DNA of 20,158 nt from a virus, in IMG/VR virus record IMGVR_UViG_3300030090_006528, positions 1-20,158 of that record, one strand, 5' to 3'. The notes under the pieces are model-generated. The model saw nothing but the letters and a program-made list of their open reading frames with translations. It was not told the DNA's origin and did not search any database. Made by a program: the position numbers and the translations under genes. This document shows positions 2,649 through 18,802 of this stretch, piece after piece (position 1 is the first letter of the stretch; every line of letters begins with the position of its first letter).

Positions 2649-3602
2649 TTAAATATAAAAATGTAACGAATCAAATTTTATATTTATTTTAATTTTGTCA
2701 ACCTCACAACATTTATCAAACCATATTTTTACCATTTTACATATTGATATAAAATCATGATTAAATAACATAATATTCGATGACCTAAAATTTACATTAA
2801 CATGTAATGTATCACCTCTAAATAGCATATGAACATATGATAGACATTCATCATCTGTAAATACAAATCTTCTACTATCAGACATTTGTTTTTTGCCATA
2901 ATATCCTGAAAGTTCTGATTCTATCTTTTTTGTAAATTTTGCAAGTTGAAATTTATAACTATCTATTTCCAATTGTTCATAGTCATTAATATTTTCCAGG
3001 CCTGTATATAGGTCCTTTGATGCCCAATTCTTAATTTGGCCAGATGTTAGGTCAAAATCCATTTTATAATTTATAAGCTCCTTAGTGCCCATATGTTCAC
3101 TACCAAACTCTTGTAGTGCCGTAATTGCAGTTCCAATTTGATGTTCTGGTCCTAGTAGAAAATCATTATACATTTCAAGTATTCCATTAATTCTATCTGC
3201 TATTTCATTTGGTTTATCTTTTGCATTAATTATCCAAAAGTTTCTGTGTTTTGCAAACTTAAGAGAAAACTCCTTATATAGCTTTGCAACATTTTTTATT
3301 GATTCCCAATTTTGAAATTCATCACCTCTTTCTGAATACCTATTAAATAACTCTACCTCATCTATGTCAAAGTAGAATACTATATTATCATTTAGATATG
3401 ATATAAATTCTCTTTGTCTTTCATAAAAGTTGTTAAATCTGCCATTAAGTTTACCGTAAACCAATATTGACATCAGGCCTCTATCGTTTAATAATACGTC
3501 AAAATCGTTAGCAGATTGTATTTTTTTCCATATCTTTTGATATTGAGTTGTTTTACCTGAGCAGTCAGGTCCTTCAAATACTAATTGTAGTCTTTTATTC
3601 AT
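2649..3602 (-). CDS. P-loop deoxynucleoside monophosphate kinase fused to a ThyA-like domain
   Basis: 317 residues from the ATG at 3602. Residues 1-145 are a thymidylate-kinase-type domain: P-loop GPDCSGKTT (11-19), NDRGL at 39-43 matching the DRY/DR motif, and a lid-like RYSERGDEF. Residues 150-317 resemble thymidylate synthase/dCMP hydroxymethylase: MGTKELINYKMDFDLTSG like GTxxxxGxxMRFdL, SDSRR (241-245) like the phosphate-binding double Arg, Cys253, then exactly 20 residues on Arg273-Ser274 (the E. coli Cys146 to Arg166-Ser167 spacing), Asp283 near the Asn177 position, and HFY at 314-316 like H207-x-Y209. The domain is compact (about 165 versus 264 residues) and lacks much of the folate-binding region. 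In T4 dCMP hydroxymethylase the Asn177 position is Asp, so a cytosine substrate is conceivable. The start overlaps the polymerase stop (ATGAATAA) with AAAGG upstream; ATGs at 3605 and 3617 are less well placed. Confidence 0.78.
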   Translation of the reverse strand: MNKRLQLVFEGPDCSGKTTQYQKIWKKIQSANDFDVLLNDRGLMSILVYGKLNGRFNNFYERQREFISYLNDNIVFYFDIDEVELFNRYSERGDEFQNWESIKNVAKLYKEFSLKFAKHRNFWIINAKDKPNEIADRINGILEMYNDFLLGPEHQIGTAITALQEFGSEHMGTKELINYKMDFDLTSGQIKNWASKDLYTGLENINDYEQLEIDSYKFQLAKFTKKIESELSGYYGKKQMSDSRRFVFTDDECLSYVHMLFRGDTLHVNVNFRSSNIMLFNHDFISICKMVKIWFDKCCEVDKIKINIKFDSLHFYI

Positions 3603-5841
3603 CATTAAACCTTTCATAAATTTTATTTAGAAACATTGTTTCACTATCCTTAAACCTACCTAATGAAATTAATACCAATTCACCAGGTTGTATTTCCTCA
3701 AACTTTTTCATTTTATTTTGCCATATAAAAAAGTCCAATGAACCGTTGTCATCCTTTAACGTAGCAATACCCATTGGTTTGCCAGATGATTTACTTCTTT
3801 TTGCAATATATTTATCCAAAATACCAATACAATATATTCCCATTTTATTACCCATTTTCATTCTTACCTCACTTGGCAACATTGTATCTGCAAATTTGAA
3901 GTCACGTTCAACAAGTATTTGTACCATTTCCTTAATTGTGTCATTAATTAAATACTTTACATTTGTTGACATCGCACCATATTCAAATTGTTTTAATTCT
4001 GTAAAATTAAATTTTTGTTCCTCATATAGCGACTGTTTTTTCTTTGGTAGCCTACCTTTATGGAATTCATTAAATATTTCTACCTCCTCACCCCATGAAT
4101 CAAACGCACCAGCAAATATAAGGTTTTCAACCTTTGCTTTATTTTTAATTGTTGACCTATCCAAAAAGTCCTGAAAGTCATTGTATGGTGCATTTTCAAT
4201 TATACCATTTACATCATTTGGTGTTATGGTTTTTATTGCACCAAAACCAAAAAGAATCTTTTTGTCAACAATTGAAAATTTCCTTTGTGATGCATTTATA
4301 TTTGCACGTTCAACAGAAAAACCTAGTTTTTTGGTTACATTAATATGTTTCATCATATCTGTACCTGGTTCTGAATTGTCCAATATTACCTTCATATATT
4401 CAATAGGATAATTTGCCTTGAAATATCCACCCCAGTATGAAATTAATGAATATGATACAGAGTGTGCCTGATTAAATCCATAGGCAGCAAAAGCAGCACA
4501 TTTTTCAAATAGGTCAAGTGCATCAGATTCCTTAATATATTTTGATAAACCTGTAATAAATTTTTCCTTATACGCACCAATCTTTTTCTGCCTTTGTGCC
4601 ATTGATTCCCAATCTCGGTATTTTACAAGTACTTTTCTGAATTTATTAGATTCTGAATCTGTAAAGCCGGCAATAAGTGCAAGTTTCATAATTTGTTCCT
4701 GGTAGGTAATAATACCGTATGTTTCCTCCAATACAGTATTTAATGGTTCTGGCCACCTTTCATATTGACCTGAAAATTTACGTTTTGCATATTCTGTTGG
4801 CATACCTTCCATAAGTGGTCCTGGCCTTAATAATGCAGATACAGCAGATAATTCGGCAACAGAATCTGCCTTTACATCCTTAAGAATACCTTTTGCTGTA
4901 CCAGATTCAAATTGAAATATTGTATCAGTATCTGCAGTGTGAAATATTTTTTTGAATGTATATTCATCATCCAATGGAATGTCACTTAATTTCCAATTTA
5001 ATCCATGCCTTTTATTTACAAGGTCAAGTGTTGCACCTACAATTGATACATTTTTAAGGCCAAGTATATCAAACTTTACATAGCCCATATGTTTAAGACC
5101 ATAGGTACCAGTACCTTCCTCCCATGCAGAAGATATACCATCACCAATTTTATTTAATGCAATATTTTCATCAAGGTTTTCAGATGATATAATAACACCA
5201 GCTGGGTGTGTACCATAATTCCTAAGCATACCCCTAATTTTTTCTGCATAAAATTTAACCTTAGGATACTTTTTGAAATATTGTTTTAATTTATCAAAGT
5301 CCTCTGCCAATTCATCAAAAGTTTTCTTTTCAGTTGCATCACCTGCCTGAATTGTTTTTGTCATACCAAATGTATCCTTTGCAGGTACACCAAGTGCACC
5401 AGCGACATCCTGTATTACAGCTCTTGTTTTTGCAAGTTGATACACACCAATTTGTTTTACCTTTTCCTTGCCAAACCTTTCATATATATAATTTATCACC
5501 TTTTGTCTACCATGTCGGCATACATCCTGGTCAATATCAACAAGGTCAACATCACCATCAGTTATCATTTCTGGTTTTTTACCAGTATCAATTGGATTAT
5601 CCTCATATATATCCAACAACCAATACAAAAGACTATTTTGTTTATTGCCAGGTAATTTTTTACCCTTATTATCTGTTATAAACTTTTGTATGTCCTTGTA
5701 TTGATCGGGATAACGTGCTTGATAAAAATCAATTGCATCACATTCTTGTTGTAGCCAAGCAATATGCTCATCAAGACCTCTATCCCTAAGGATTTTTGAT
5801 GCATTGCTGAATATTTTATCTCCAATTAGTATTTTACTCAT
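3595..5841 (-). CDS. dnaE: DNA polymerase III alpha, C-terminal polypeptide (palm catalytic part, thumb/fingers, OB fold)
   Basis: 748 residues carrying the catalytic half of a C-family replicative polymerase. VDIDQD (101-106) matches the family PDxDxD pair, and VKFDILGL (Asp258) is the third metal-binding Asp; the 154-156 residue separation equals that in E. coli DnaE. Also visible: THPAGVIIS, FQFESGTAKG, LLRPGPLMEGM, YGIITYQEQIM, the fingers segment AAYGFNQAHSVSYSLISYW, a helix-hairpin-helix-like GFGAIKTIT region, and a C-terminal OB fold (MGIYCIGILDKY... GSLDFFIW... GELVLI). The first roughly 95 residues have no counterpart I recognise in ordinary DnaE. The ATG lies one base after the stop of the PHP-containing gene and has no good Shine-Dalgarno, so coupled translation is likely. 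It must assemble with that protein, because the GPGRGS dNTP-binding loop is encoded there. No tau-binding tail beyond the OB fold was recognised. Confidence 0.95.
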   Translation of the reverse strand: MSKILIGDKIFSNASKILRDRGLDEHIAWLQQECDAIDFYQARYPDQYKDIQKFITDNKGKKLPGNKQNSLLYWLLDIYEDNPIDTGKKPEMITDGDVDLVDIDQDVCRHGRQKVINYIYERFGKEKVKQIGVYQLAKTRAVIQDVAGALGVPAKDTFGMTKTIQAGDATEKKTFDELAEDFDKLKQYFKKYPKVKFYAEKIRGMLRNYGTHPAGVIISSENLDENIALNKIGDGISSAWEEGTGTYGLKHMGYVKFDILGLKNVSIVGATLDLVNKRHGLNWKLSDIPLDDEYTFKKIFHTADTDTIFQFESGTAKGILKDVKADSVAELSAVSALLRPGPLMEGMPTEYAKRKFSGQYERWPEPLNTVLEETYGIITYQEQIMKLALIAGFTDSESNKFRKVLVKYRDWESMAQRQKKIGAYKEKFITGLSKYIKESDALDLFEKCAAFAAYGFNQAHSVSYSLISYWGGYFKANYPIEYMKVILDNSEPGTDMMKHINVTKKLGFSVERANINASQRKFSIVDKKILFGFGAIKTITPNDVNGIIENAPYNDFQDFLDRSTIKNKAKVENLIFAGAFDSWGEEVEIFNEFHKGRLPKKKQSLYEEQKFNFTELKQFEYGAMSTNVKYLINDTIKEMVQILVERDFKFADTMLPSEVRMKMGNKMGIYCIGILDKYIAKRSKSSGKPMGIATLKDDNGSLDFFIWQNKMKKFEEIQPGELVLISLGRFKDSETMFLNKIYERFNDE

Positions 5842-5842
5842 A

Positions 5843-7126
5843 TTATATCATTTTTGGGAACGAAGCCTTATCTCTACCAAGGTCCAAAAACCTTTCAAAA
5901 ATTAAACCCCAATCCAGTGGATTTACCTCTGTTAAACCTATTACGTAAGCAATAAGGCTACCAGCAACCGAACCTCTACCTGGACCTATATATATTTTTT
6001 CCTTATTGCAATATTCAATTATGTCCTCAAGAATAAGAAAGTATCCAATGTAGTTCATTTTACGTAATACTGAATATTCGTATCTTATCCTTTCTTTTAC
6101 CTCATCTGATATGTCATTACCAAATCTGTATTTTAGGCCTTTTTTAATTTTTTCCTGAAATATAATTTGTTCGTCATCATATAGTTTTGGAAGTTTTACG
6201 TCAGCATCAAAATTAGTGTCCTTAACCATATCCAAAATTTTATGACAATTATTTGCAGACCTAATAAATACCTCCTCGGTAAAAAATTCATTTTTATGAT
6301 ACCTTTCCCATGATGCATGCATTTCATCATAATTTTTATAATATAGTTCTCTTGCATGATAACCTTTTAGATTTTCACAGTCGGCATGGTCGTCCTTATT
6401 TGACCTATCACGAATAGTTATAAGCATATCGTGTACCTCCTGGTCATCATAGCGAATATAGTGAGCGTCATTGGTCACAACTGTTTCTATATCAAGTTCT
6501 TGTGCAATTCTAACCAATTGTTTATTACAATCAATTTGTTCCTGCATTTGGTGAACTTGTAATTCTATAAAGTATTTGTCACCAAACCTATCCTTGTATT
6601 GCTTGGCAACACTTTTGGCCTCCTCGTAGTCACCATTCATTAAATGAAACGGTATTTCACCACCTAGACACGCAGATGTGATAACAAGACCCTCACCATA
6701 TTTGCTTAACATTTCAAAATCAGTTCTTGGTTTTGAATAAAATCCATTCATGTGTGCATCATTATTAATGCGAATAAGATTTTTAATTCCTTTATCATTA
6801 TATGCTAGGACAAGAAGGTGAAAATACTTTCTGTATTTTTGTTTGCCATCATCTGTTTTTCTTGAATCCTCATCCATGAATCTGTGGTTGTTGACATAAA
6901 CCTCACATCCAAATACAGGAGTGATACCTTCTTGTCTAGCATATTTCCATAACCTTGCCCAGGACGAAATAACACCGTGATCAGTTATTGCCAAATGACT
7001 AAGGTTATTTTCCTTACCAAAGTCAATTAATTCCTGCAATTTTGATAGTGCATCTCGAGTTGAAAATTCACTATGGCAATGTATTTGTACAAAGCCTTCC
7101 TTAACATCTTTTCTGGGTTTTATCAT
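5843..7126 (-). CDS. dnaE: DNA polymerase III alpha, N-terminal polypeptide (PHP domain plus start of palm)
   Basis: 427 residues. The PHP domain has most metal-ligand motifs: HCHSEFS (16-22), ITDHG (47-51), GCEVYV (73-78), the HLLVLAYND strand, SACLGGEIP (151-159) and TNDAHYI (218-224). It is followed by the first palm strands: NYIGYFLILEDII, GPGRGSVAGSLIAYVIGLT (381-399) and NPLDWGLIFERFLDLGR (402-418). It stops at ASFPKMI, exactly where an intact DnaE would read PDxDxD, so the catalytic aspartates are on the next gene. PHP in DnaE can be structural or a 3'-5' exonuclease; the retained ligands allow activity but do not prove it. There is no Shine-Dalgarno: a TATATT promoter element ends 6 bases upstream of the ATG, so the mRNA is probably leaderless. 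Start supported by homology, since the PHP HCHS normally lies about 15 residues in. Confidence 0.95.
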   Translation of the reverse strand: MIKPRKDVKEGFVQIHCHSEFSTRDALSKLQELIDFGKENNLSHLAITDHGVISSWARLWKYARQEGITPVFGCEVYVNNHRFMDEDSRKTDDGKQKYRKYFHLLVLAYNDKGIKNLIRINNDAHMNGFYSKPRTDFEMLSKYGEGLVITSACLGGEIPFHLMNGDYEEAKSVAKQYKDRFGDKYFIELQVHQMQEQIDCNKQLVRIAQELDIETVVTNDAHYIRYDDQEVHDMLITIRDRSNKDDHADCENLKGYHARELYYKNYDEMHASWERYHKNEFFTEEVFIRSANNCHKILDMVKDTNFDADVKLPKLYDDEQIIFQEKIKKGLKYRFGNDISDEVKERIRYEYSVLRKMNYIGYFLILEDIIEYCNKEKIYIGPGRGSVAGSLIAYVIGLTEVNPLDWGLIFERFLDLGRDKASFPKMI

Positions 7127-7132
7127 AGTATT

Positions 7133-7161
7133 AATATAACAATTTTTTGTGACATAAAAAA
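7133..7161 (-). promoter_or_regulatory. Promoter upstream of the polymerase gene; -10 abuts the ATG
   Basis: Minus-strand -35 TTTTTT (7161-7156), exact 17 bp spacer ending TTGT, -10 TATATT (7138-7133). Only six bases (AATACT) separate the -10 from the ATG at 7126, so transcription would begin at or near the start codon. Would drive polymerase, kinase, ThyX-like and groESL genes. Confidence 0.65.
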
Positions 7162-7165
7162 ATAA

Positions 7166-7729
7166 TTACCTATATATTTTTGAATTTTTCCAATTCCTAA
7201 ATGCAAATTGTATTTCCTCATCAATTGGTTCTGGTTCGTTTACTGTAACCTCCTTAATAGGTTGCGGAAACATAACGTCCAATATTTCCATAATTTTTCG
7301 CCTTTGTATACCATTTATACTTTTTGATTCCAATGACGATTCGACATGTTGTATTGCATTTTTACGCATATCCAATTCCATATATTCCACAGCAGTTTCC
7401 AAAACACGTTTAAGGTCATCGTGTGTATATTGACGATAATGCCTAATTGGTTTTGTATTTGGTGTAATTTTTGTAGGTGTGGATTTTGGTGCCTTACCAC
7501 TACGTAAACCACGCATGATACCATAGCCCGAACGCTGCGATAATTTGTTTAACCTATCTGCAGTTGCCTTGTCTGTGATTTGAATTGTATTACCAGTTTT
7601 GTGATAGGTAATATCCACACAAGAGACAGCCTCGACAGTTGAGCATTCGACACAAACATTAAAACCTAGATCGATACGACCTTGTGGTATTTTGTTTGTA
7701 TTACATTTTGGGCATATGATATCGTACAT
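7166..7729 (-). CDS. TraR/DksA-like zinc-finger protein of unknown function
   Basis: 187 residues. The N-terminus has a four-cysteine finger: CPKC (6-9), then IPQGRIDLGF, then CVEC (26-29). The arrangement resembles TraR/DksA zinc fingers (CxxC...IPxxRL...CxxC). A basic middle part (SGYGIMRGLRSGKAPKSTP, residues about 66-84) is followed by helical segments and an acidic stretch (EPEPIDEEIQF) near the end. DksA-family proteins bind the RNA polymerase secondary channel; a transcriptional role here is a guess from the finger alone. I chose the ATG at 7729 rather than the in-frame one at 7804 because a promoter-like TATATT element lies between them and the extra N-terminus would be encoded by promoter DNA. 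No clear Shine-Dalgarno precedes the chosen start. It appears to have its own promoter. Confidence 0.7.
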   Translation of the reverse strand: MYDIICPKCNTNKIPQGRIDLGFNVCVECSTVEAVSCVDITYHKTGNTIQITDKATADRLNKLSQRSGYGIMRGLRSGKAPKSTPTKITPNTKPIRHYRQYTHDDLKRVLETAVEYMELDMRKNAIQHVESSLESKSINGIQRRKIMEILDVMFPQPIKEVTVNEPEPIDEEIQFAFRNWKNSKIYR

Positions 7730-7752
7730 AGATTGATTTTTTATATAGTATA

Positions 7753-7781
7753 AATATAACAATTTTCTCGCAAGAAAAAAA
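7753..7781 (-). promoter_or_regulatory. Promoter upstream of the TraR/DksA-like gene
   Basis: Minus-strand TTTTTT (7781-7776), 17 bp spacer ending TTGT, TATATT (7758-7753), matching the other copies. The spacer contains a short inverted repeat (TTTTCT-TGCG-AGAAAA), a possible operator. The start codon at 7729 is 23 bases downstream. Confidence 0.65.
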
Positions 7782-7818
7782 ATTTCTAACGAACTATTTT
7801 TCAAAAGTTATTAACAAT

Positions 7819-8172
7819 TTATGCACAATGGTTCATCCATTTTCCATAAAAATTAAGATATTTTTTCTCCAATTTACCAAATGTAAGTGTTTTGAAGTGT
7901 ACTGCTTCATAACTTTTATCTGGTAAATGAGCTGAAAGATAATTATTAATAAGGTTTTGTAAAGAAGTCACATTATGATTTTCTATTAAATCTGTAGGAA
8001 AACAAAACATGAATTCCTTTGTATTACTTTCATCTCTTTCCAAAATGTAACTCCAAAAATCATCTACATACATTCTAGATTCTATTTTTTTCTCTACTTG
8101 TGTTTCCCAAAATTTTATTTCAGCCTTTGCAGCTGGATTTTCATAGAAGCACGTCGTTAATTTTACTTTCAT
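7819..8172 (-). CDS. Hypothetical protein, 117 residues
   Basis: Not recognised. A small soluble protein with alternating charged helical segments (KAEIKFWETQVEKKIESRM, residues about 16-34), a central LQNLINNYLSAHLPD helix and an aromatic C-terminus (LEKKYLNFYGKWMNH). No signal peptide, membrane segment or metal motif. The ATG at 8172 lies inside the end of the dUTPase/HAD gene, a 32-base overlap, larger than the other overlaps here. Only a weak AAAG-type ribosome site precedes it. The open frame fills the space to the next promoter with no competing gene, supporting it as real. It is probably co-transcribed with the FAD oxidoreductase and the dUTPase/HAD fusion. Confidence 0.62.
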   Translation of the reverse strand: MKVKLTTCFYENPAAKAEIKFWETQVEKKIESRMYVDDFWSYILERDESNTKEFMFCFPTDLIENHNVTSLQNLINNYLSAHLPDKSYEAVHFKTLTFGKLEKKYLNFYGKWMNHCA

Positions 8173-9079
8173 AAGCTATTACTTTTACACCTTTATTAAT
8201 TTTTCTATTTAATGTTTCCTCAGTATAAAGACCATAATTAGGGTTTAGATATACCTCAAAACCACTGTCATCTAATTTGTTTGCATTGCCAATATCATCA
8301 TCCAAACAGAATGCAACCTGGTTGGGGTCAAAATTATTAATAATATATTTTTCCTTTTCCTCATCAAATACAATTGCATCATAACAAATTTCATTATCAT
8401 TAAGCCATTTAATTGTATCTGAATATATTCTAAAATACTTTTTATATGGCCTTGCTGTTAATAATACAACATTATATTTTTCACATGCATCCTTCATAAA
8501 CTCCTTTGCTCCATCCAATACATCCAGTGTTGCCTTAACACCACATGTCCTATATTCAGACTTTATTCTATACTGTTCCTTTTTATCAACCTTTGACTTA
8601 AAATCATTTAGGCTTTTATAGCCAGACCACTTTAGGAATCCACCAGGCCAATCTGCAAGTACACCATCAATATCAATAAATGCAATTTTTTTATCAGATG
8701 CCTTAATTTTTTTCATTACCTTTTCCTGGTTAAATTTTGCCTCAACAACTCTTGATTTATCCATAAATTTTTCGTATAAATCATCAACATTAAATCCATT
8801 TAGCTGGATTATTCCAAAAAGGTATTTTAGTACATCAACACATTCCTCTAATACATTATCATTTACATCTTCTGTCTTTTTTGATGTATGCATTTTCCAA
8901 TCAATTTCATCAAGTACCTCATATACCTCCTTTGATAATGCCAAAACATATTCCTTGTTCCATTTTATTTTTAATTCCTTATCTTTTACAACATCATCAA
9001 TTGTAAGACCATGCTTATCCTTAAAAAATTTTTCTGTAAAATCTTTTTGTATTCCAAATATTCTTTCTAATTTATCCAT
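8141..9079 (-). CDS. All-alpha dUTPase-like NTP pyrophosphatase fused to a HAD-family 5'-nucleotidase
   Basis: 312 residues in two domains. Residues 40-120 fit the dimeric dUTPase/MazG-type all-alpha fold: ALSKEVYEVLDEIDWKM (47-63) then NVLEECVDVLKYLFGIIQLNG (75-95), giving the paired ExxxE and ExxxD metal-binding helices, ending with the family-like YEKFMDKSRVVEAKF. Residues 131-300 are a HAD phosphatase: FIDIDGVLADWPGG (nucleophile Asp136, acid Asp138), VVLLTARP (motif II), and CLDDDIGNANKL with the motif IV aspartates. Expected chemistry is dUTP (or dCTP) to the monophosphate, and removal of a 5'-phosphate or other phosphoester by the HAD part. The start shares TAATG with the preceding stop and has GGAG upstream. 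Coupling these two activities in one chain is unusual; it could shape dNTP pools or remove host nucleotides. Domain calls are confident, substrates are inferred. Confidence 0.85.
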   Translation of the reverse strand: MDKLERIFGIQKDFTEKFFKDKHGLTIDDVVKDKELKIKWNKEYVLALSKEVYEVLDEIDWKMHTSKKTEDVNDNVLEECVDVLKYLFGIIQLNGFNVDDLYEKFMDKSRVVEAKFNQEKVMKKIKASDKKIAFIDIDGVLADWPGGFLKWSGYKSLNDFKSKVDKKEQYRIKSEYRTCGVKATLDVLDGAKEFMKDACEKYNVVLLTARPYKKYFRIYSDTIKWLNDNEICYDAIVFDEEKEKYIINNFDPNQVAFCLDDDIGNANKLDDSGFEVYLNPNYGLYTEETLNRKINKGVKVIAYESKINDVLL

Positions 9080-10047
9080 TACTTAAACTCCGGGTATGGT
9101 TTTCTATATTTATTTGTCCAATCAATTACTCTATCCAAAACTTCATTTGCCTTTATTTTATGATTCCATTGTGCAAATCTACCTAACATAAATACTCTGT
9201 CAAATCTATCAATGTCAATACTATTTTTTATCTGTATTGGCATACTTTCAAATTGATTCATTACAGGATATGGTGGTATAAAAGGATTAACAGATTCATA
9301 TACCATATAATCATTAAAATATGTTTTTCTTGTCCATCCTTCCTTATAACCATATACGTAATCAAAGCCAGACCTTTCACCCTTATTTGTTTGATAAAAA
9401 CATTTTGGTAGTGTTGTTAGGTCCAAGCCTTTTAATTCATCACCTTTCCAAATACCTCCCATTCCATTATAGTCTTTTGCCAATAATTTTAATGATAGTG
9501 TATTTATAATTGTTTCATATTCATAGCACATTGAAGGTCCTAAACCTTCCTTTGCATGTATGAAGCCTGATGGTACTATTTCTGTAACCTTTTGTCTTTT
9601 TAACTGTCCTCTATCCTTGTCGATTATTTTTAACAATGTTTGAAATAAAAATCTATAACTATATTCACCTAAATCATTTATTTCAAGGTGTTCTATTTCA
9701 TTTTTACCTTCAGATAGATAGCTTGATTCTGCATCGGATTTGCCTCTTGTTAGCTTTGTGTAGTTTTTCCTAAAACCTTTAGGTGGTATTGCCATTGCCA
9801 TACCGTCCTGTTCATATCCAACCTTTGCAACAACAGTTTTTATTTTATATCCAAATAAACCAGCATCATCCAATACACTTCTAACAAATTTTTCTGTGTT
9901 TTCTGTCCTTTGTATTAATCTAGGACCTGGTATGAATGGTAAATTTAGTTGACCTAATGGTTTTTCATCCAATACAGGAAATTCAGGAAAGTAATATCCT
10001 GCAATTAATCCAGCTGGACCAGCACCTATAATACAACCTTTATTCAT
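9079..10047 (-). CDS. FAD/NAD(P)-binding oxidoreductase (flavin amine-oxidase/UDP-galactopyranose-mutase-like)
   Basis: 322 residues from the ATG at 10047. A dinucleotide-binding GxGxxG starts at residue 8 (IIGAGPAGLIAGYYFPEF), and a C-terminal FMLGRFAQWNHKIKANEVLDRV matches the second FAD-contact segment of NAD(P)-binding Rossmann flavoproteins, where a G-R-F/Y precedes an aromatic residue. There is no signal peptide or membrane segment. Substrate unknown; the C-terminal pattern recalls UDP-galactopyranose mutase and related amine oxidases. The start was moved from 10062 because the earlier ATG overlaps the GAGGAG ribosome site, which is correctly spaced 7 bases before 10047. A TATATT promoter lies just upstream. 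First gene of a unit with the dUTPase/HAD fusion, so a role in nucleotide or DNA-base chemistry is possible but unproven; sugar modification is an equal alternative. Confidence 0.8.
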   Translation of the reverse strand: MNKGCIIGAGPAGLIAGYYFPEFPVLDEKPLGQLNLPFIPGPRLIQRTENTEKFVRSVLDDAGLFGYKIKTVVAKVGYEQDGMAMAIPPKGFRKNYTKLTRGKSDAESSYLSEGKNEIEHLEINDLGEYSYRFLFQTLLKIIDKDRGQLKRQKVTEIVPSGFIHAKEGLGPSMCYEYETIINTLSLKLLAKDYNGMGGIWKGDELKGLDLTTLPKCFYQTNKGERSGFDYVYGYKEGWTRKTYFNDYMVYESVNPFIPPYPVMNQFESMPIQIKNSIDIDRFDRVFMLGRFAQWNHKIKANEVLDRVIDWTNKYRKPYPEFK

Positions 10048-10067
10048 ATTTATTCTCCTCATGTGTT

Positions 10068-10096
10068 AATATAACAAAAATTCTCCAAATAAAAAA
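10068..10096 (-). promoter_or_regulatory. Promoter upstream of the FAD oxidoreductase gene
   Basis: Minus-strand TTTTTT (10096-10091), 17 bp spacer ending TTGT, TATATT (10073-10068). A GAGGAG ribosome site follows 6-8 bases after the -10, giving a very short leader before the ATG at 10047. Confidence 0.65.
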
Positions 10097-10102
10097 ATAA
10101 TT

Positions 10103-10498
10103 TTATACCTTTATCCATTTTCCATCTGTTTGCAATTGAAAAGAGCCTACATATACCTGATTCCACTCGTTAGGTCCTATTAAACTTAACCACAAACTTT
10201 TATCTTTTTTTTCATACATATGATATGTGTGCCCAACAATTGGTTGAAATGCGTATGATGATTCATATACCAACCTTGTCCAGTTATATTCCTGTATAAG
10301 TTTTTTATATTCCTGTCTAAGTTCATCTAATCTTGATTCAAAATAGTGATTAGCAGTAATTCCTGAACTTTTGTCTACACTAATTGGTTCAAAACCTGGT
10401 GCACCTACAGACGTTGGATAAGGTTTAATATTTGCATCAAACTTATCTAATTTATAGTCATAAACTATGTTATCCGGATATTTCTTTTTTATAGACAA
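10103..10498 (-). CDS. DUF2452 family protein, TTG start
   Basis: 131 residues with the pattern I know from DUF2452: VGAPGFEPISVDKS (31-44), a helical segment with RLDELRQEYKKLI, then the FQPIVGHTYHMYEK and LSLIGPNEW motifs and a final W. The family is widespread in bacteria and has no established function. No ATG is available before the conserved region: in this frame a TGA lies just upstream and only TTG at 10498 gives a full-length product. AGAGGTGAGAG upstream can serve as a ribosome site. The start overlaps the cysteine synthase stop by 10 bases, so translational coupling probably compensates for the weak start. Last gene of the presumed SSB-to-DUF2452 unit; a promoter follows at once for the next unit. 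Confidence 0.83.
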   Translation of the reverse strand: MSIKKKYPDNIVYDYKLDKFDANIKPYPTSVGAPGFEPISVDKSSGITANHYFESRLDELRQEYKKLIQEYNWTRLVYESSYAFQPIVGHTYHMYEKKDKSLWLSLIGPNEWNQVYVGSFQLQTDGKWIKV

Positions 10499-11385
10499 CT
10501 TAGATATCTCTCACCTCTATCACATAGTATTGTGATTGCCGTTTTTTTATTATTGTCATGCAAATATTGAAAAGCAGCAAATACATTTGCACCTGCACTT
10601 ATTCCTACAAATAAGCCATATCGCTGAGCCAAGTATTTTGCAACTGCTTTTGCACATTCTGTTTTAACTGTTTTTACCTTACTAATCTTTTTTAGGTCCA
10701 CCAAAAACTTACTACCATCACCTATACCTTGTATTCCATGCAAGCCAGGTTTTCCACCTGACATAACGGCTGATTCCTCTGGTTCAACTGCTATAGTTTC
10801 CATTCCTGGACATTGTTCGCTAAGGTATTTTCCTGCACCCATTATAGTTCCACCTGTGCCAGTTCCTGCTACAAATGCCTGCATCCACCCACAATCACTG
10901 TATTTGTGATTTCTTTGAAATTCTTTCCATATTTCAGGACCTGTTGTTTTATAATGTACCTCTATATTTAATTTATTATGAAATTGATTGCAATTAAAAT
11001 ATCCTTCAAGTTCTGATAGTTCATCTCTTACATCTATTGCTTCATCAAAATCTCCAGCACCAACCTCTATAAGTTCTGCACCATAAAATCTTAACATTTG
11101 CTTTCTTTCATTAGACATATTTTCAGGCATAACAATTTTCATTTTATATCCACGTTCTGCTGCTAACATTGCAAAGGCAATCCCTGTATTTCCAGAAGTT
11201 GCCTCTATTAGTGTATCACCTTTTTTTATAAGTCCATTTTGTTCTGCATTATTAATAATATACGTTGCCATTCTATCCTTTACGCTTCCACCTGGATTCA
11301 TAAATTCACATTTGCCCCATACTGTGTAACCTCCAAATCTAATTGGAATAAGTGGTGTATTACCCACGCAATCTGATAGTTTCAT
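10489..11385 (-). CDS. cysK: Cysteine synthase (O-acetylserine sulfhydrylase), PLP-dependent
   Basis: Forms cysteine from O-acetylserine and sulfide in the cytoplasm. 298 residues, slightly short of bacterial CysK (about 310-325), with every core motif: VGNTPL, NPGGSVKDR with the PLP lysine at 36, the substrate loop EATSGNTG (62-68), the phosphate-binding GTGTGGT (174-180), HGIQGIGDG and the serine loop GISAGAN. It ends CDRGERYLS, as in the family. It looks active. The start overlaps the preceding small Zn-ribbon gene by ATGA. Phage-borne cysteine synthase is unusual: possible roles are supplying cysteine or sulfide for FeS and redox proteins during infection, or binding a host partner as CysK does with several proteins. 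The related cystathionine beta-synthase type or O-phosphoserine-using variants cannot be excluded. Confidence 0.94.
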   Translation of the reverse strand: MKLSDCVGNTPLIPIRFGGYTVWGKCEFMNPGGSVKDRMATYIINNAEQNGLIKKGDTLIEATSGNTGIAFAMLAAERGYKMKIVMPENMSNERKQMLRFYGAELIEVGAGDFDEAIDVRDELSELEGYFNCNQFHNKLNIEVHYKTTGPEIWKEFQRNHKYSDCGWMQAFVAGTGTGGTIMGAGKYLSEQCPGMETIAVEPEESAVMSGGKPGLHGIQGIGDGSKFLVDLKKISKVKTVKTECAKAVAKYLAQRYGLFVGISAGANVFAAFQYLHDNNKKTAITILCDRGERYLSCL

Positions 11386-11585: not shown

Positions 11586-13358
11586 TTATCCCTCACAGGC
11601 AGCACAATCCTCCTTCATTGCGTTTGCAGCAATATCACCTCTTAATACACTTTCTGTCCTAAAATAATAAAGTGTTTTTACACCTGCTTTCCATGCCTCA
11701 AGATGTACCTGATTTATCCATTTTGGGGTTGCCTCTTTTGGAAATGCAAGATTAAGTGATACAGCTTGGTCAACATATTGTTGACGGATTCCTGCTTGCC
11801 TTACTAGTTCTAATTGGTTAATTTCTTTGAAAGTTTTATAAACCTCTTTAACCGGAATTGGGTCGTCTGTTTCAGATGCATCACTGCATAAAATTAGTTT
11901 TGCCTTAACATAGCACCACTTATCCAATTCTTTTATATCCTGCACACTTCCACCATCTGCAAGTATTTTGTCCCATGTTTCTTTATTATTTATTCCTGCT
12001 TTTCTAAATACTTTTTCTAATTCTTTATTTTTTCTAATAAATGTACCTTTTGCACTTTGTTCAGTATATACATTTGCTGGTATTGGTTCAATTCCTGAAC
12101 TTACACCACCTGCCAATTTACTATTTGATACTGTTGGAGCTACTGCTCTTAAATGTGTATTTCTAAATCCACTACCTGCACACCAAAGTGGTTCACCATA
12201 TTCAGTTGCCATGTCTCTAGATGCTTGTTCTGTTTCAGTTTGTATTTGGCCAAATATCCTTCTTGTTTCAAACTGTGCAGGTAGGCCTTCAAATGGTATT
12301 CCTCTTTGTTGTAAATATGTATGCCATCCTAATACACCTAAACCTAATGCTCTACCTTTTTCTGCACTTCTTACTGCATTTTCAAATCCTTGTCTATACT
12401 TTGCCTTTTGTATAAATTCCTCGAGGACTCCATCCAAGAACCATGTAGCTGTATAAATTAAATCTGTATCTTTCCATTCATCATATCTTGCAAGATTTAG
12501 TGAACTTAAACAACAAACAAAAGAGTGGTTTTCATCTGTGTGTAAAACTATTTCACTACAAATATTTGTCATATAACATTTTAATCCGTTTTTCTTATAT
12601 TGTTCTGGGTTTTGCTTATTTACATTGCCTCGATACATAATATATGGTTCACCTGTTTGTCTACGTTTTTTAAGTAGATTCATCCACTTTCTTCTACACT
12701 CAGGGTCTCCTGCCTCAAGATTTCTCATAAATTTATCACCAACAATTGCACATTGATGCATATTTAACGATTGTCTATTTACATCACCTTTAGGTTCTCT
12801 AATTTCCAACCAATCATCAAAATCTGGATGGTCAATATTTAGATTTACACTAGCGGCACCTCTACGTACAGCACCTTGGTTTGTAGCAAGAATAGTAGAA
12901 TCATAGATTTTACAAAATGGTACCACACCATCACTTGTTCCATTTCCAGTGATTGCTGCACCTGCTGGCCTAATTTGATTTATACCAATACCTACTCCAC
13001 CACCATGTTTTGCTAATAACATCATTTCAAGGTTTTTCCTACCTATATCATAAATGCTATCAGCAACATCAATTCCAAAACAACTAATTGGTAAACCTCT
13101 TTCCAATCCTGTATTACTTAGTACAGGACTTGCAAGGCATAACCAACCTTTCCAAATATAGTCAAAAAACTTTGTTGCTAATTCTGGCTTACCCAACCTT
13201 TTTGCTACTGTTGTACAGACTCTCCAATATGCATCCTTTGGTTTTTCACCATTATGTAAATAACCATTAGATATTGTTTGTACGTATACTTTATTATTTG
13301 CCCAACTTGGAAAATCAACATCAACCTCCCATCCAAGATGTTCTGCGTAATTTTTCAT
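11586..13358 (-). CDS. nrdA: Class I ribonucleoside-diphosphate reductase, alpha (large) subunit, no ATP cone
   Basis: Reduces NDPs to dNDPs. 590 residues against about 760 in E. coli NrdA: the N-terminal ATP-cone is absent and the protein starts near the barrel, so the dATP off-switch should be missing. Visible catalytic features: SPVLSNTG (77-84), Cys93 in ISCFG (first redox cysteine), the finger-loop NICSEI with Asn265, Cys267 and Glu269 (radical cysteine site), Cys282/Cys283 (partner redox position), and PTVSNSKLAGGVSSGIEP. The tyrosine pair of the radical pathway is in TLYYFRT, and the C-terminal swinging-arm CAAC is at 585-588. A good Shine-Dalgarno (AGGGGAAAG) precedes the ATG, 12 bases after the beta-subunit gene. 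Gene order nrdB-nrdA is the reverse of the usual bacterial order. It looks complete and active. Confidence 0.96.
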   Translation of the reverse strand: MKNYAEHLGWEVDVDFPSWANNKVYVQTISNGYLHNGEKPKDAYWRVCTTVAKRLGKPELATKFFDYIWKGWLCLASPVLSNTGLERGLPISCFGIDVADSIYDIGRKNLEMMLLAKHGGGVGIGINQIRPAGAAITGNGTSDGVVPFCKIYDSTILATNQGAVRRGAASVNLNIDHPDFDDWLEIREPKGDVNRQSLNMHQCAIVGDKFMRNLEAGDPECRRKWMNLLKKRRQTGEPYIMYRGNVNKQNPEQYKKNGLKCYMTNICSEIVLHTDENHSFVCCLSSLNLARYDEWKDTDLIYTATWFLDGVLEEFIQKAKYRQGFENAVRSAEKGRALGLGVLGWHTYLQQRGIPFEGLPAQFETRRIFGQIQTETEQASRDMATEYGEPLWCAGSGFRNTHLRAVAPTVSNSKLAGGVSSGIEPIPANVYTEQSAKGTFIRKNKELEKVFRKAGINNKETWDKILADGGSVQDIKELDKWCYVKAKLILCSDASETDDPIPVKEVYKTFKEINQLELVRQAGIRQQYVDQAVSLNLAFPKEATPKWINQVHLEAWKAGVKTLYYFRTESVLRGDIAANAMKEDCAACEG

Positions 13359-13370
13359 TTCTTTCCCCTA

Positions 13371-14363
13371 TTAAAACATATCATCCCAGTCATCACCTTC
13401 ACCAGCTTTACTATAATCAGTAGGACGAATACTGAAAAAGTCAGTATGAGTATGCCCACCAGTAAGATGATAGAACCAATCCAGATTGCTAGCTTGTTCC
13501 TGATTAACCACGAATACTTCGCCATAACCTAACTCCTTTAATTTATCATTTGTTCTTTGCTTTATAAATTCTTTTAGGTCTGAAGCTTTAAGATTTTCAA
13601 GGTCACCCATTTCAAACATCTTATCTATAAACTTTTCCTCTAGTTCTACAATTAATTTTGCAGCCTGAACTATTGAGTCCTTTGATTGTTCTCTTAATTC
13701 AGGATATTCCTCACACATGTGATTAAATAGTTGGCATCCCATTCTACTATGTAATGATTCATCTCTTACAGACCATTTCATTTGTTGGCCAACACCTTTT
13801 AATAAATTTCGCATTTGAAAACTATATAATACAGCAAAAGAGCTATAAAGACTTACGCCTTCAGCAAAAGCAGAAAAAATTGCCAAACTTCTTGCAACCT
13901 CTTGCCTTGCATTTTCATTTTTTGCTAAATCTTCATGTGTATAATCTGCACTTGTATTCATTAGTAGGTCAAATTTATCTGCAGTAGCTGGTTCATGCAA
14001 AAATGCCTCAAAGTCCTCTAATCCTAATGTTTCATTAAGATATGAATATGCAACTGCATGTATTGTTTCTTGACTTCCAAACATCATTGACATTTGTCTT
14101 ATTTCATGTTTTGGAAACCATTTAGTAACCATTCCTGTCCAATAGTCAGATACTGCACACTCAGTTTGTGCAAATCCTAAAAGTATATTTCCTACCAAAT
14201 TTTTTTCTGCTGGATTTAGATTTTCTTTCCAATCCTTAACATCACCTTGCATTGCTATTTCTGTATGCAACCAAAATGCTTGTGCCTGTTTAAGCCAACC
14301 TTCTGTGTAGTATATTGGATACTCAAATGGCTTAAAAGGCACCCTCTCTTCAAAAAGTGCCAT
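13371..14363 (-). CDS. nrdB: Class I ribonucleotide reductase, beta (small, radical-generating) subunit
   Basis: 330 residues, ferritin-like fold holding the dimetal-tyrosyl radical cofactor. The ligands are identifiable by spacing: Glu68 (QTECA), Glu99 and His102 (ETIHAVAYSY), radical Tyr106 four residues after His102, Glu168 (FAEGVSLY), Glu202 and His205 (RDESLHSRMG). The first ligand is Glu where E. coli has Asp84, but Tyr106 is retained, so this resembles a tyrosyl-radical enzyme rather than the Phe-containing Ic type. The C-terminal tail ends DDWDDMF, a plausible alpha-docking peptide. Start follows AGGAG six bases upstream. It lies between the helicase gene and nrdA, within the same transcription unit as SSB and UvsX, so dNTP supply is probably co-expressed with replication proteins. 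Confidence 0.96.
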   Translation of the reverse strand: MALFEERVPFKPFEYPIYYTEGWLKQAQAFWLHTEIAMQGDVKDWKENLNPAEKNLVGNILLGFAQTECAVSDYWTGMVTKWFPKHEIRQMSMMFGSQETIHAVAYSYLNETLGLEDFEAFLHEPATADKFDLLMNTSADYTHEDLAKNENARQEVARSLAIFSAFAEGVSLYSSFAVLYSFQMRNLLKGVGQQMKWSVRDESLHSRMGCQLFNHMCEEYPELREQSKDSIVQAAKLIVELEEKFIDKMFEMGDLENLKASDLKEFIKQRTNDKLKELGYGEVFVVNQEQASNLDWFYHLTGGHTHTDFFSIRPTDYSKAGEGDDWDDMF

Positions 14364-14415
14364 ATAATTCTCCTGTTTTTATTTGTTCAACTATAATTAT
14401 CATTATATATGTATA

Positions 14416-14562
14416 TTAAGACGGATTTTCATTTAATTCCTCAAACTTATTTTTTAATAGCTTTCTTGTTGTTTCCTCATGGTTATCCATCTGCTTCTGT
14501 ACCTCCCTGCCTTGTACAGATGATTGTGCAAAAATGTCAATATGACCATTACTTGCATTCAT
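14416..14562 (-). pseudogene. C-terminal helicase segment in the -1 frame (or a separate 48-residue peptide)
   Basis: The -1 frame relative to the helicase gene continues open through its TGA stop and encodes MNASNGHIDIF followed by a charged helical tail (about 48 residues, ending ELNENPS). From memory of gp41/DnaB-like phage helicases, KNRFGxDG is normally followed within a few residues by K(M/I)(N/D)xSxGxIxI, so this looks like the missing end of the same protein. The overlap is AAATGA, where an ATG in the -1 frame overlaps the TGA. Three readings are possible: -1 slippage at CAA-AAA-TGA, a small indel (natural or sequencing), or re-initiation giving a separate peptide. No good Shine-Dalgarno precedes the ATG. 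An open frame also extends upstream to an ATG at 14607. Confidence 0.6.
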
Positions 14563-15764
14563 TTTTGATGGCCATCTGGTCCAAATCTGTTTTTTATAAC
14601 ATGCCATCTACCTGTACCATCTACCTTATCTTCTATTTTTCTTGATAATGATACCACAAAATCTGCCGTCATAATTTTTGAATATGATTCTGCAATTTTA
14701 TCTGCCTGTATTACATCTTCCTGTAATGCAGACCTATTTGCCTGTGATGCTGTCCATACTGGTATCTCCTGTTCACCTGCCAAACCTCTTAGGTCTTCAT
14801 ATATATTTCCTAATTGTATTCTTAATTCACTTGTTTTACCTGTACCTCTTAATAGGTCGGCATAGTCAACGATTACAAGGTCTGGTTTTATACCTTGCAT
14901 TTTACATTTTTCAATGTGGCTTGAAATTGTATTTACTGATGCACCTTTTGTTGGATAATATTTTACAACAAGATTTCCTTTTATTGTTTTTAACTTTTCC
15001 TTTACATCATCAATATTATATTTTAGGTTTTGTGCCGCAATACCTGTAAATACACTGTCATATCTTAATCCTACATATGCCTCATTTAATTCAAGTGTAT
15101 AATGTAATACAGTTTTACCTGCCTTTACGGCATTTGCAGCAACATTTACCAATGCCCAAGATTTACCAATACCTGCAGGTGCAACCATAACACCTAATTC
15201 ACCTTTTCCTAAACCACCATCAGCAAGTTCATCAATTACCTCCCAACCTGTTGTAATTGTATTCCTAACAGACTCCTCATATCTTTCATCAATATTATCC
15301 ATATATTCATGTCCAATATTTCTTTCGGAACCTGCCTTCATTGCTGTATCTATTAGATTTTTTATTGCATCATATTCACCATCCTTAAGTAATTCCACAG
15401 ATTGTATGATTGCACCTTTAAGGTTTTGATTTTTGCAAAAGTCAAGTGTTTGTTGTTTTACAAAGTCCAAATCCTCTGCACCAATATATCTATATACATC
15501 CTTAAGGTGTTCAACTACTGTCTTTTTTAGAACATCATTATCAATTTCAGTAACCTTTACCTTAAGTACCTCTTTTGTTGGAGGTGCCTTATATTCATTA
15601 AAATATTCCTTAACAATATCAACAATAAATCTATTTGCATCATTTTCAAAAAACTTTGATTCAAGAATGTCAATTATCTGCTGTAAAAATGCCTTATCAG
15701 TAAATAAGCATGTCAGTATTTTTATTTGAAAGCTATATCCGTATTCTGATAATTTATTACTCAT
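14559..15764 (-). CDS. Replicative DNA helicase, DnaB/T4 gp41 type, C-terminus interrupted
   Basis: Hexameric 5'-3' helicase that unwinds DNA at the fork. 401 residues: an N-terminal helical region (1-150), then a RecA-like motor with a linker TTGWEVIDELADGGLGKGEL, Walker A APAGIGKS (195-202), the HYTLEL strand (221-226) with the catalytic Glu, Walker B DLVIVDYADLL (295-305), the PVWTASQANRSA sensor, and RWHVIKNRFGPDG near the end with the arginine-finger-type basic residues. The frame stops at GHQK, while the usual following motif lies in the -1 frame. GGAGG precedes the ATG, which overlaps the nuclease stop by 8 bases. It would act with the split Pol III and a primase that is not in the window. 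The motor itself looks intact. Confidence 0.93.
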   Translation of the reverse strand: MSNKLSEYGYSFQIKILTCLFTDKAFLQQIIDILESKFFENDANRFIVDIVKEYFNEYKAPPTKEVLKVKVTEIDNDVLKKTVVEHLKDVYRYIGAEDLDFVKQQTLDFCKNQNLKGAIIQSVELLKDGEYDAIKNLIDTAMKAGSERNIGHEYMDNIDERYEESVRNTITTGWEVIDELADGGLGKGELGVMVAPAGIGKSWALVNVAANAVKAGKTVLHYTLELNEAYVGLRYDSVFTGIAAQNLKYNIDDVKEKLKTIKGNLVVKYYPTKGASVNTISSHIEKCKMQGIKPDLVIVDYADLLRGTGKTSELRIQLGNIYEDLRGLAGEQEIPVWTASQANRSALQEDVIQADKIAESYSKIMTADFVVSLSRKIEDKVDGTGRWHVIKNRFGPDGHQK

Positions 15765-16812
15765 TCTTGTCCTCCACTATTGAATATGAATCAAGGCTTC
15801 TCCATGTATCTTGTAGCCAAAATTCTGGGTTTTTCATTGTACTATTTATTTTATCCTCAAGGAACATTGTTAAAAATTTAGGTTTATTTAGCCTTTGTAT
15901 TGGCCTTCTAACAATATCCAAAATTGATGATTTTGCATGACCTGAGATATCTACCTCTCTTAATTGCATAAGTTTGTAATTTAGTCTTAATATATCACCA
16001 CTTTCTGCAATTGTTGCAAGTATTTTAGCATCAGATTTATTATCCTCTGCTTGCTTTAATATGTCATCAATTGTTATTTTTTTATCACCAAAAATTATTG
16101 GTAGCCTTTTTTGTAGTGTTTTTAGGCCTGTCCCCTTAATTCCTGGAATATTATCTGAACTATCACCTAATAATGTTCTATATTCCAAAAAGTTATTTGC
16201 AGGTACACCAAATTCCTCTAGTATTGTTTCCTGAAAATAAAATTTCTTTTTTGTAGGTGACCAAACCTGAACCTTGTCATTTACAAGCTGTAGATAATCC
16301 TTATCTGTTGACATTATAAATTTTTGTGATTCAGGATATATTTGTTCACATATATATGCAATTGCATCATCAGCCTCTATGTTTTCAGTTGCCAAAACTG
16401 TAACTGGCAGTGTTTCCAAGTATTGTGTAAGCCTTCTTATTTGCTGGCCCATTGCAATTTGTTCATCGCCAACATTTCCATAATTAGACATTCTTGTAAG
16501 TCTTGTTCTTACCCTGCGATTTGCCTTATAATCTGGAAACATTTTTCTGCGCCTTGTACTACCACCTTTTCCATCCCAACATATAATAACACGTGTTGGC
16601 CTTATATTTCTAATTGCATATCCTATGGATTGAAGAAAGCCGGTCATACCACCAATATGAACACCATCATCATTAGAACTTGGATTGACGGCAAAGCTTC
16701 TGATAAATGTGTTCAATCCATCAATCAATAAAATTCTACTGTTTTTGTGTGTTTCTTGTGTGGTCTGTTTTAGACCGTCAAGTATCCTAAAATACCTCTC
16801 TCTTCTTTCCAT
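15757..16812 (-). CDS. 5'-3' exonuclease / flap nuclease (T4 RNase H type)
   Basis: Removes RNA primers and 5' flaps from lagging-strand fragments. 351 residues with the FEN-family acidic sites: LLIDGLNTF (Asp31), CWDGKGGSTRRRKMFPDYKANR (Asp80, then the basic helical arch), ENIEADDAIAY (Glu146, Asp148, Asp149), MSTDKDYLQL (Asp170, Asp172) and RTLLGDSSDNIPGIKGTGL (Asp217, Asp220 and the helix-hairpin-helix with its K-ion loop). The N-terminal 25 residues before the first catalytic strand are longer than usual and hydrophilic. There is no polymerase I domain, so it is a stand-alone nuclease as in T4. AAAGG upstream; it follows UvsX directly and overlaps the helicase start, forming a recombination/replication cluster. 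Confidence 0.94.
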   Translation of the reverse strand: MERRERYFRILDGLKQTTQETHKNSRILLIDGLNTFIRSFAVNPSSNDDGVHIGGMTGFLQSIGYAIRNIRPTRVIICWDGKGGSTRRRKMFPDYKANRRVRTRLTRMSNYGNVGDEQIAMGQQIRRLTQYLETLPVTVLATENIEADDAIAYICEQIYPESQKFIMSTDKDYLQLVNDKVQVWSPTKKKFYFQETILEEFGVPANNFLEYRTLLGDSSDNIPGIKGTGLKTLQKRLPIIFGDKKITIDDILKQAEDNKSDAKILATIAESGDILRLNYKLMQLREVDISGHAKSSILDIVRRPIQRLNKPKFLTMFLEDKINSTMKNPEFWLQDTWRSLDSYSIVEDKNE

Positions 16813-16833
16813 AGTTTATAACCTTTATTTATT

Positions 16834-17958
16834 TTATCCAGTTGGTACGTCATCATTACCAATTTCAATATCATCAATACCAAATTCATCTGCCTTATAA
16901 TTCATAATCAAAGCATCACAAATCATATTGTAAATTCTCTGTTTATTAACATCATCCTTTAGTACTCTTGATTCAAAATCTTTAGACTGAAATTTAATTT
17001 CCTCACCTGTTTCTGGGTCCTTATAGGTATACCAAGCACCTGATACTGTGACTAGTTTATAGTCCTTTAGTACCTGTAGCCATCCACCTATATCATCGAC
17101 GCCTGATTCAAAAAAGATATTAAATTCTGCAGTCCTTAATGGTGGTCCCATTCTGTTTTTAACAACAACAGCTTTTGTTTTAATTCCAATAACCTGTTCC
17201 TTACCATTTACCTTTGCCTTTATTTGTCCAGCAGCCTTTAACCTTAACCTACAACTTGCATGAAATTGTAATGCCTTTCCACCACTTGTTGTCCAAGGGT
17301 CACCAAACATAACACCAAGCTTTTGCCTTAATTGGTTAGTAAATACACATGCAATTCTTTGTCTACCAATAAGATTTGTAATTTTCCTCATTGCCTTTGA
17401 CATAACAATTGCCTTTCCTGTAGACCATCCATCCTTGTCATAATCTGCAGATTGTTCTACCTTAGTAGTTGCAGCTGCAACAGAATCAACAACTATAGTT
17501 ACAAGTTTATCCTTATCAGATTCTCTTGCCTTAAGTATAATAGTTTCCATTACCTCAAATATATCCTCAACTGTTTCAAGCTGAATATATAACATTTTTG
17601 ATACATCGATACCAATTGCTCTTAAGAACTCCTCATTCATAGCATTTTCAGTATCAATATAAACTGCAGTACCACCTTGCTTTTGTGTATTTGCCAAGAG
17701 ATGGGCAGAAAGCAGTGATTTACCACTTGCCTCCATACCCGTTATCTCGGTTATTCTACCTACTGGAATTCCACCATTTGGTCTATTAGCAATAGCTAGG
17801 TCAAGAACAGAAGAGCCAGTACTTATCCATTCAGTTAAATCTGTAGGTGTATCCTCAGACCCATCCAAGAAATAAGCAACCTTAAAATCCTTGAATTTTT
17901 TATTTAATGAATCTGCAAGTACATTTGCCAAATCATCTCTTTTGTTTCCTTTAGCCAT
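16834..17958 (-). CDS. uvsX: UvsX/RecA-type recombinase
   Basis: ATP-dependent strand-exchange protein that forms filaments on ssDNA for recombination, repair and recombination-primed replication. 374 residues: an N-terminal linker, STGSSVLDLAI (46-56), Walker A GMEASGKS (74-81), YIDTENAM (100-107) with the catalytic glutamate region, Walker B VTIVVDSVAA (153-162), an L1/L2-type DNA-binding region around MRKITNLI...CVFTNQLR, then KALQFHASCRLRL and an acidic C-terminal tail (DEFGIDDIEIGNDD). The tail resembles the regulatory acidic tails of RecA/UvsX. AAGGAG precedes the start. It sits directly downstream of its likely partner SSB. A UvsY-type mediator was not recognised in this window. Confidence 0.95.
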   Translation of the reverse strand: MAKGNKRDDLANVLADSLNKKFKDFKVAYFLDGSEDTPTDLTEWISTGSSVLDLAIANRPNGGIPVGRITEITGMEASGKSLLSAHLLANTQKQGGTAVYIDTENAMNEEFLRAIGIDVSKMLYIQLETVEDIFEVMETIILKARESDKDKLVTIVVDSVAAATTKVEQSADYDKDGWSTGKAIVMSKAMRKITNLIGRQRIACVFTNQLRQKLGVMFGDPWTTSGGKALQFHASCRLRLKAAGQIKAKVNGKEQVIGIKTKAVVVKNRMGPPLRTAEFNIFFESGVDDIGGWLQVLKDYKLVTVSGAWYTYKDPETGEEIKFQSKDFESRVLKDDVNKQRIYNMICDALIMNYKADEFGIDDIEIGNDDVPTG

Positions 17959-17968
17959 CTATTACTCC

Positions 17969-18773: not shown

Positions 18774-18802
18774 AATATAACAAAAATTTCTTTAATCTGA
18801 AA
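18774..18802 (-). promoter_or_regulatory. Promoter upstream of the SSB gene
   Basis: Minus-strand TTTCAG (18802-18797), 17 bp spacer ending TTGT, TATATT (18779-18774). The -35 lies inside the 3' end of uvsE. It gives a leader of roughly 35 bases with AAAGGAG before the SSB start. Confidence 0.6.

Follow-up and report, generated by a model that had tools for sequence, protein, structure and literature searches.

The locus considered here raises the question of how a gene for a replicative DNA polymerase can be cut within the catalytic palm domain and still be maintained. In a marine phage, a DNA polymerase of the bacterial replicative type is encoded as two proteins. The window, that is, the whole stretch of 20,158 nucleotides analysed in this study, comprises positions 1 to 20,158 of the IMG/VR record IMGVR_UViG_3300030090_006528, the source record being 52 kb long with ends not established as genome ends. 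We consider it fairly probable that the two proteins form a stable two-chain DnaE, separately translated and with an active site assembled across the chains, and that the break is a relic of homing-endonuclease insertion at the PDxDxD codons.

Layout of the two chains

On the minus strand, an ORF of 427 amino acids (7126-5843) is adjoined by an ORF of 748 amino acids (5841-3595), and the translations and Pfam matches bear out the first-pass annotation, which had described a DnaE split into two ORFs at this place. Chain 1 (5843..7126, minus strand) is the N-terminal part of DnaE; it carries the PHP domain (PF02811) and the palm segment with GPGRGS, covers about the first 100 positions (3-100) of DNA_pol3_alpha (PF07733), and ends ...FERFLDLGRDKASFPKMI, the last residues being SFPKMI. 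Chain 2 (3595..5841, minus strand), the C-terminal part, carries the catalytic aspartates and matches the remainder of PF07733, the finger domain (PF17657) and HHH_6 (PF14579), with an OB-like end whose Pfam match falls below threshold. The PHP, palm, fingers and HhH domains stand in DnaE order across the two chains, and PHROG 405 (phage DNA polymerase) is covered from 42 to 440 by chain 1 and from 440 to 1053 by chain 2. The AF2 model of chain 2, with a pLDDT of 70 that makes it reliable for the overall fold only, matches as a whole the structures of Pol III alpha (7pu7, E 1.3e-32).

GPGRGS and the three catalytic aspartates are all present, yet they are divided between the chains, as had been noticed from the sequence at the outset. 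GPGRGS, the GS motif of the palm, occupies aa 381-386 of chain 1 (5969..5986, minus strand), whereas D102 and D104 belong to VDIDQD at aa 101-106 of chain 2 (5524..5541, minus strand), aligned with PDIDxD of intact DnaE, and the third aspartate, D258 (VKFDIL), lies at 5068..5070 on the same strand; the three are invariant in an alignment of 17 rows (A6). The two halves were also said to be otherwise intact in their motifs, and every catalytic motif and PHP residue is indeed kept. All nine active-site residues of the PHP domain are found in chain 1 (H16, H18, D49, H50, E75, H103, C153, D220 and H222; 6461..7081, minus strand), completing the HHDHEHCDH set, and the residue set HHDHEH[C/H]DH marks an active PHP proofreading domain (PMC12926913). 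An exonuclease of the RNase_T/DnaQ type was not found in the four records of the window clade, and the PHP domain of chain 1 probably provides a proofreading activity. Since the DnaE motifs are spread over two chains, with about 98 extra residues on the second, we regard the pair as a two-chain variant of the C-family Pol III alpha. In such an enzyme the chains would associate, chain 1 contributing the PHP domain and the GS motif and chain 2 the metal-binding aspartates and DNA-binding parts, so that the dNTP-binding GS motif would meet the aspartates in one palm.

While VDIDQD does lie on the second polypeptide, the further statement that it follows directly on the break did not hold. Where both motifs could be placed in an intact viral DnaE, 41-42 residues separate GPGRGS from PDxDxD. 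Chain 1 stops three residues past the Pro of the PDxDxD motif position, and chain 2 starts not at the Asp but with about 98 residues ahead of the catalytic motif (aa 1-98; 5548..5841, minus strand), which have no counterpart there in intact DnaE. This segment and the proposed origin of the break go beyond the first-pass annotation. Helices are predicted by AF2 at residues 6-20, 24-43, 45-58 and 67-75, followed by a low-confidence disordered linker (85-100) and the catalytic strand (102-108).

Selection on both pieces and translation across the junction

The window is a metagenomic contig, known as an assembled sequence, and the two ORFs might on that account be put down to a sequencing or assembly error or to a decaying gene. 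However, scans of IMG/VR for related phages with the same break point yielded three further contigs (L002, L003 and L004; 90-91% identity to the window in chain 2) which carry it, and the break is therefore not an assembly error; close relatives with one continuous frame were looked for, and none was found. Pairwise comparison of the window with L002 and L004 gave a dN/dS of 0.05 in chain 1 and of 0.05-0.06 in chain 2; the final 60 codons of chain 1 gave 0.02-0.05 and the initial 98 codons of chain 2 gave 0.06-0.08. In these pairs dS is around or above 1, and the values derive from four contigs that are closely related, L002 and L003 being nearly identical. Both chains are thus under strong purifying selection, which supports the retention of both gene pieces. 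A second DnaE or a PolB was not found in the records of the window clade, which are fragments. The view that the split is stable and functional rather than a sign of decay is supported by these results. Four contigs share the break and conserve the extra segment, the motifs are intact and dN/dS is about 0.05, which makes error or decay scarcely credible.

At the break (5839..5845, minus strand) the TAA stop of chain 1, one base and the ATG start of chain 2 follow each other (..ATG ATA TAA T ATG AGT..). The window and L004 read UAA-U-AUG here, L002 and L003 UAA-UU-AUG, thus the one-base gap and +1-related frame described earlier apply to the former two only. Each of the four contigs provides chain 2 with a separate ATG; an in-frame TGA (UGA) stands three codons ahead of the chain 2 start. 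The gap of one base in some relatives and two in others means that the relative frame is not conserved, suggesting that chain 2 is separately initiated and is not a frameshift product; as the simplest reading, it is probably made by termination and re-initiation at UAA-U(U)-AUG, the two chains being translated as separate proteins. Frameshifting programmed at the UAA, of the kind known from the RF2 gene, could fuse both chains in some translation events, and a +1 slip at this codon would indeed enter the frame of chain 2 just ahead of its ATG in the window and L004; but the identical slip would miss the frame in L002 and L003, and with an ATG of its own in every contig chain 2 leaves a very slim chance for this explanation.

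The mature enzyme might also be one chain if an unrecognised splicing element, either a split intein or an intron, rejoined the halves. Inteins or split inteins do occur at other palm and finger sites of related viral DnaEs (L018, L022, L079 and L138), and in Enterocloster phage CB473P2 (L048, OP172756) the DnaE-like gene also breaks after ...EIPD, upstream of an I-HmuI-type ORF. Nevertheless, a Pfam search at E <= 1 detected no intein domain or splicing block in chain 1 or chain 2, while the same library detected the inteins of L018, L022 and L138, and the segment of chain 2 does not combine Asn with a Cys/Ser/Thr end. An intron would not fit into the one or two bases at the break and would have to comprise the entire segment of about 290 bases, yet this segment is conserved as protein (dN/dS 0.06-0.08). 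Rfam introns were absent from the window break and from every other site searched, which is weakly informative since the CB473P2 break also gave nothing. We therefore hold splicing of either kind to be very improbable. Another proposal is that the chains no longer constitute one polymerase, chain 1 acting as a PHP nuclease and chain 2 in some other role, with replication left to a host enzyme or a PolA-like protein. The extra segment of chain 2 at the break would agree with this, as would a small PolA-like ORF of about 345 aa, present beside tail genes in the record of the window (G000:22329-23366, outside the window) and in a second record (G003:96421-97455); it has a motif-A-like EMDYDAFHLRLIA and a motif-C-like YIYDALVFD and is possibly a second polymerase, so that another polymerase could in principle carry replication. 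On the other hand, strong purifying selection maintains all residues needed for polymerisation. Among these is GPGRGS, for which a nuclease on its own would have no evident need. The pair also lies within a replication cluster with gp32-, RecA- and DnaB-like genes. Separate roles for the chains are accordingly unlikely, and assembly into one polymerase is the reading that we follow below.

Interruptions of viral dnaE at the PDxDxD codons

Among intact genes, those closest to the window clade are L070 and L072; both are uninterrupted at the break site, thus the continuous state is taken as ancestral and the split as derived. Most genes in a survey of 80 viral DnaE loci, about 74 of which could be assigned to a class, are likewise uninterrupted; in this survey an intein-free break between GPGRGS and DxD was seen only in L004 and L005, both found again by it. 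In L005, chain 1 ends FERFLNPARMGSPNLETKEISIEEF... and is followed by a LAGLIDADG ORF and then by chain 2 with about 72 residues before CDIDVDF. The plan of L005 is repeated in L021, with a homologous endonuclease (44% identity) and a homologous flanking segment, and L022 is one continuous ORF at this site, carrying in frame the homologous insert, of about 110 residues, without the endonuclease. In the tree of the catalytic region, L005 falls among the intact L012-L018, L021 and L022 fall with the intact L029 and L037, and the window clade is placed elsewhere. A single origin of all interrupted genes was rejected (AU p = 1.5e-5), as was a clade of L005, L021 and L022 (p = 5.9e-5), the p-values being somewhat generous since both groupings were chosen after inspection of the tree. 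These rejections make the insert and its endonuclease look mobile, and the comparison indicates that at least three viral lineages have independently acquired an interruption of the PDxDxD codons of dnaE, with a LAGLIDADG cassette in two of them. Such independent interruptions are consistent with homing endonucleases whose targets are the most strongly conserved codons, and the palm motifs of viral dnaE emerge from the loci compared as repeated targets of mobile elements.

No endonuclease gene is present at the break of the window clade, where only one or two bases separate the ORFs, and for this reason the locus is probably a relic rather than a member of the genes-in-pieces generated by an endonuclease. 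We propose that a homing-endonuclease gene was inserted at the conserved PDxDxD codons and later lost, which would have left the two reading frames and the segment of about 98 residues on chain 2. The window clade would then probably be a later stage, with the endonuclease gone and the genes still separate; we infer this stage, as the segment matches the L005-type insert weakly. The match amounts to 5.4 bits, a score reached by 9 of 2000 shuffles, and the two have in common the pattern N-x-x-N-S, then a Leu/Tyr-rich stretch, then Pro. A firm claim of homology was dropped in view of the weak score, and the kinship is at most suggested. The L005-type insert had no match in the bacterial genomes searched, and a search of bacterial genomes with chain 2 gave one match, an ordinary intact DnaE in a Dojkabacteria MAG. 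Matches of the L022 insert to Vibrio phage NrdA (E 3-9), where the gene is a single ORF, were taken as chance, and a likeness of the L005 chain 1 tail to intein block A was set aside, the second part being devoid of intein features.

As to its role, the segment of chain 2 may act as an interface for binding chain 1, may persist as a passive remnant, or may be a degenerate copy of the palm GS region. In the profile built from the L005, L021 and L022 inserts, DnaE palm fragments rank first among 2,325 fragments, and hhalign gives P = 3.5e-4 over 18 columns between insert and palm; the PF07733 alignment to chain 2 begins at residue 13, and the direct signal between the window segment and the palm is marginal, the observed score being reached by 35 of 3000 shuffles. 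Degenerate duplication of the palm was rejected as a firm claim since the HMM and hhalign signals are marginal, and early alignments that placed the inserts of split chains over the GPGRGS segment were excluded from modelling. It is a speculative and distinctly doubtful idea that a degenerate GS-helix copy fills the palm until the GPGRGS of chain 1 displaces it on assembly, whereby subunit binding would switch the active site on. AF2 of the continuous L022 palm with its insert was unusable (pLDDT 49).

Several viral dnaE genes are interrupted at additional sites. In L021 (3569-8499), dnaE is divided among a PHP piece of 332 aa, a piece of 135 aa with the GS segment and a remainder of 843 aa, with the LAGLIDADG ORF at the PDxDxD break, and the tail of the middle piece ends DRDIDIDYY, resembling the catalytic motif. 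L022 (5539-10272) carries, together with the PDxDxD insert, an apparent intein at CIYQEQ and another near SHAAAY, and has the PHP domain on a separate ORF. The genes of L018 (4927-9552) and L017 (4439-5776) are broken near FNKxHAxAYS; in L018 a split intein has the N part CITGSTLVLKEDG... and a C part ending ...IVSGN directly before SHAVAYS, with an endonuclease-like ORF between, and L017 has a C-terminal intein half, which we read as the fractured-gene arrangement in dnaE. At the GS motif, between GPGRG and S, L138 (786-6980) is broken by a split intein whose halves flank a methylase-like ORF and an uncharacterised one, and L079 (2823-7340) has a continuous intein. The DnaE-like gene of CB473P2 (5028-11304), annotated as hypothetical proteins, consists of three pieces separated by two I-HmuI-type endonucleases, probably in introns unseen by Rfam.

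Split phage enzymes and the replication cluster

Essential phage enzymes made as two chains are known. In Aeromonas phage Aeh1, mobE splits NrdA, the 'genes-in-pieces' ribonucleotide reductase, and the enzyme retains full activity; the two chains of the split gp43 of phage 25 co-purify and polymerise (PMC2988022). Like the DnaE of the window, Aeh1 NrdA is an essential enzyme cut in a critical region and made as two separate chains, and its split is endonuclease-driven, as that of the window probably was, but it is another enzyme, and an HNH endonuclease gene is still in the break while none is left in the window. The split T4-type gp43 is likewise a phage replicative DNA polymerase in two chains, but it belongs to family B rather than C and has an endonuclease gene or an untranslated spacer between its genes instead of one or two bases. 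By analogy, these precedents show that split enzymes can work.

Within family C, Corynebacterium phage P1201 has a DnaE as two adjacent ORFs (gp59/gp58) without an intein domain, but the break lies between palm and fingers, leaving the GS motif and all catalytic aspartates on one chain. DnaE is likewise annotated as two genes in Rhodococcus phage Trina (gp101/gp102) and Microbacterium phage Anakin (gp56/gp57), but there the break separates the PHP domain from the palm. Fractured genes with split inteins are two-piece genes whose pieces can be rejoined by protein trans-splicing (Dassa et al. 2009, as cited in PMC6892783), and those seen here in L018 and L138 resemble the window in being two-piece genes, in some cases with an endonuclease-type ORF between the pieces, but no intein parts were found in the chains of the window. 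In the other split phage DnaEs read closely, the break is thus between domains, bridged by a split intein, or beside an endonuclease gene. Among the genes examined, a break that lies within the catalytic palm and is retained with an empty gap is new for family C, and a literature search largely confined to papers outside subscription journals found no published description of one. If the pair is active, an active site of the C family can assemble from two chains, and the locus would offer a natural split polymerase for complementation or control in the laboratory. It also carries a warning for annotation, in that 'half' polymerase genes of metagenomic phages can be real.

The neighbouring genes combine a C-family, not a B-family, polymerase with T4-like replication functions, positions 11586-18733 of the window encoding a gp32-like protein, a RecA/UvsX-like protein, a 5'-3' exonuclease, a DnaB-like helicase and a ribonucleotide reductase. 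Further genes encode a Cpn10 (GroES-like) protein (781-1083), a PLP-dependent cysteine-synthase-like enzyme (10489-11385) and a UvdE-type UV endonuclease (18792-19802).
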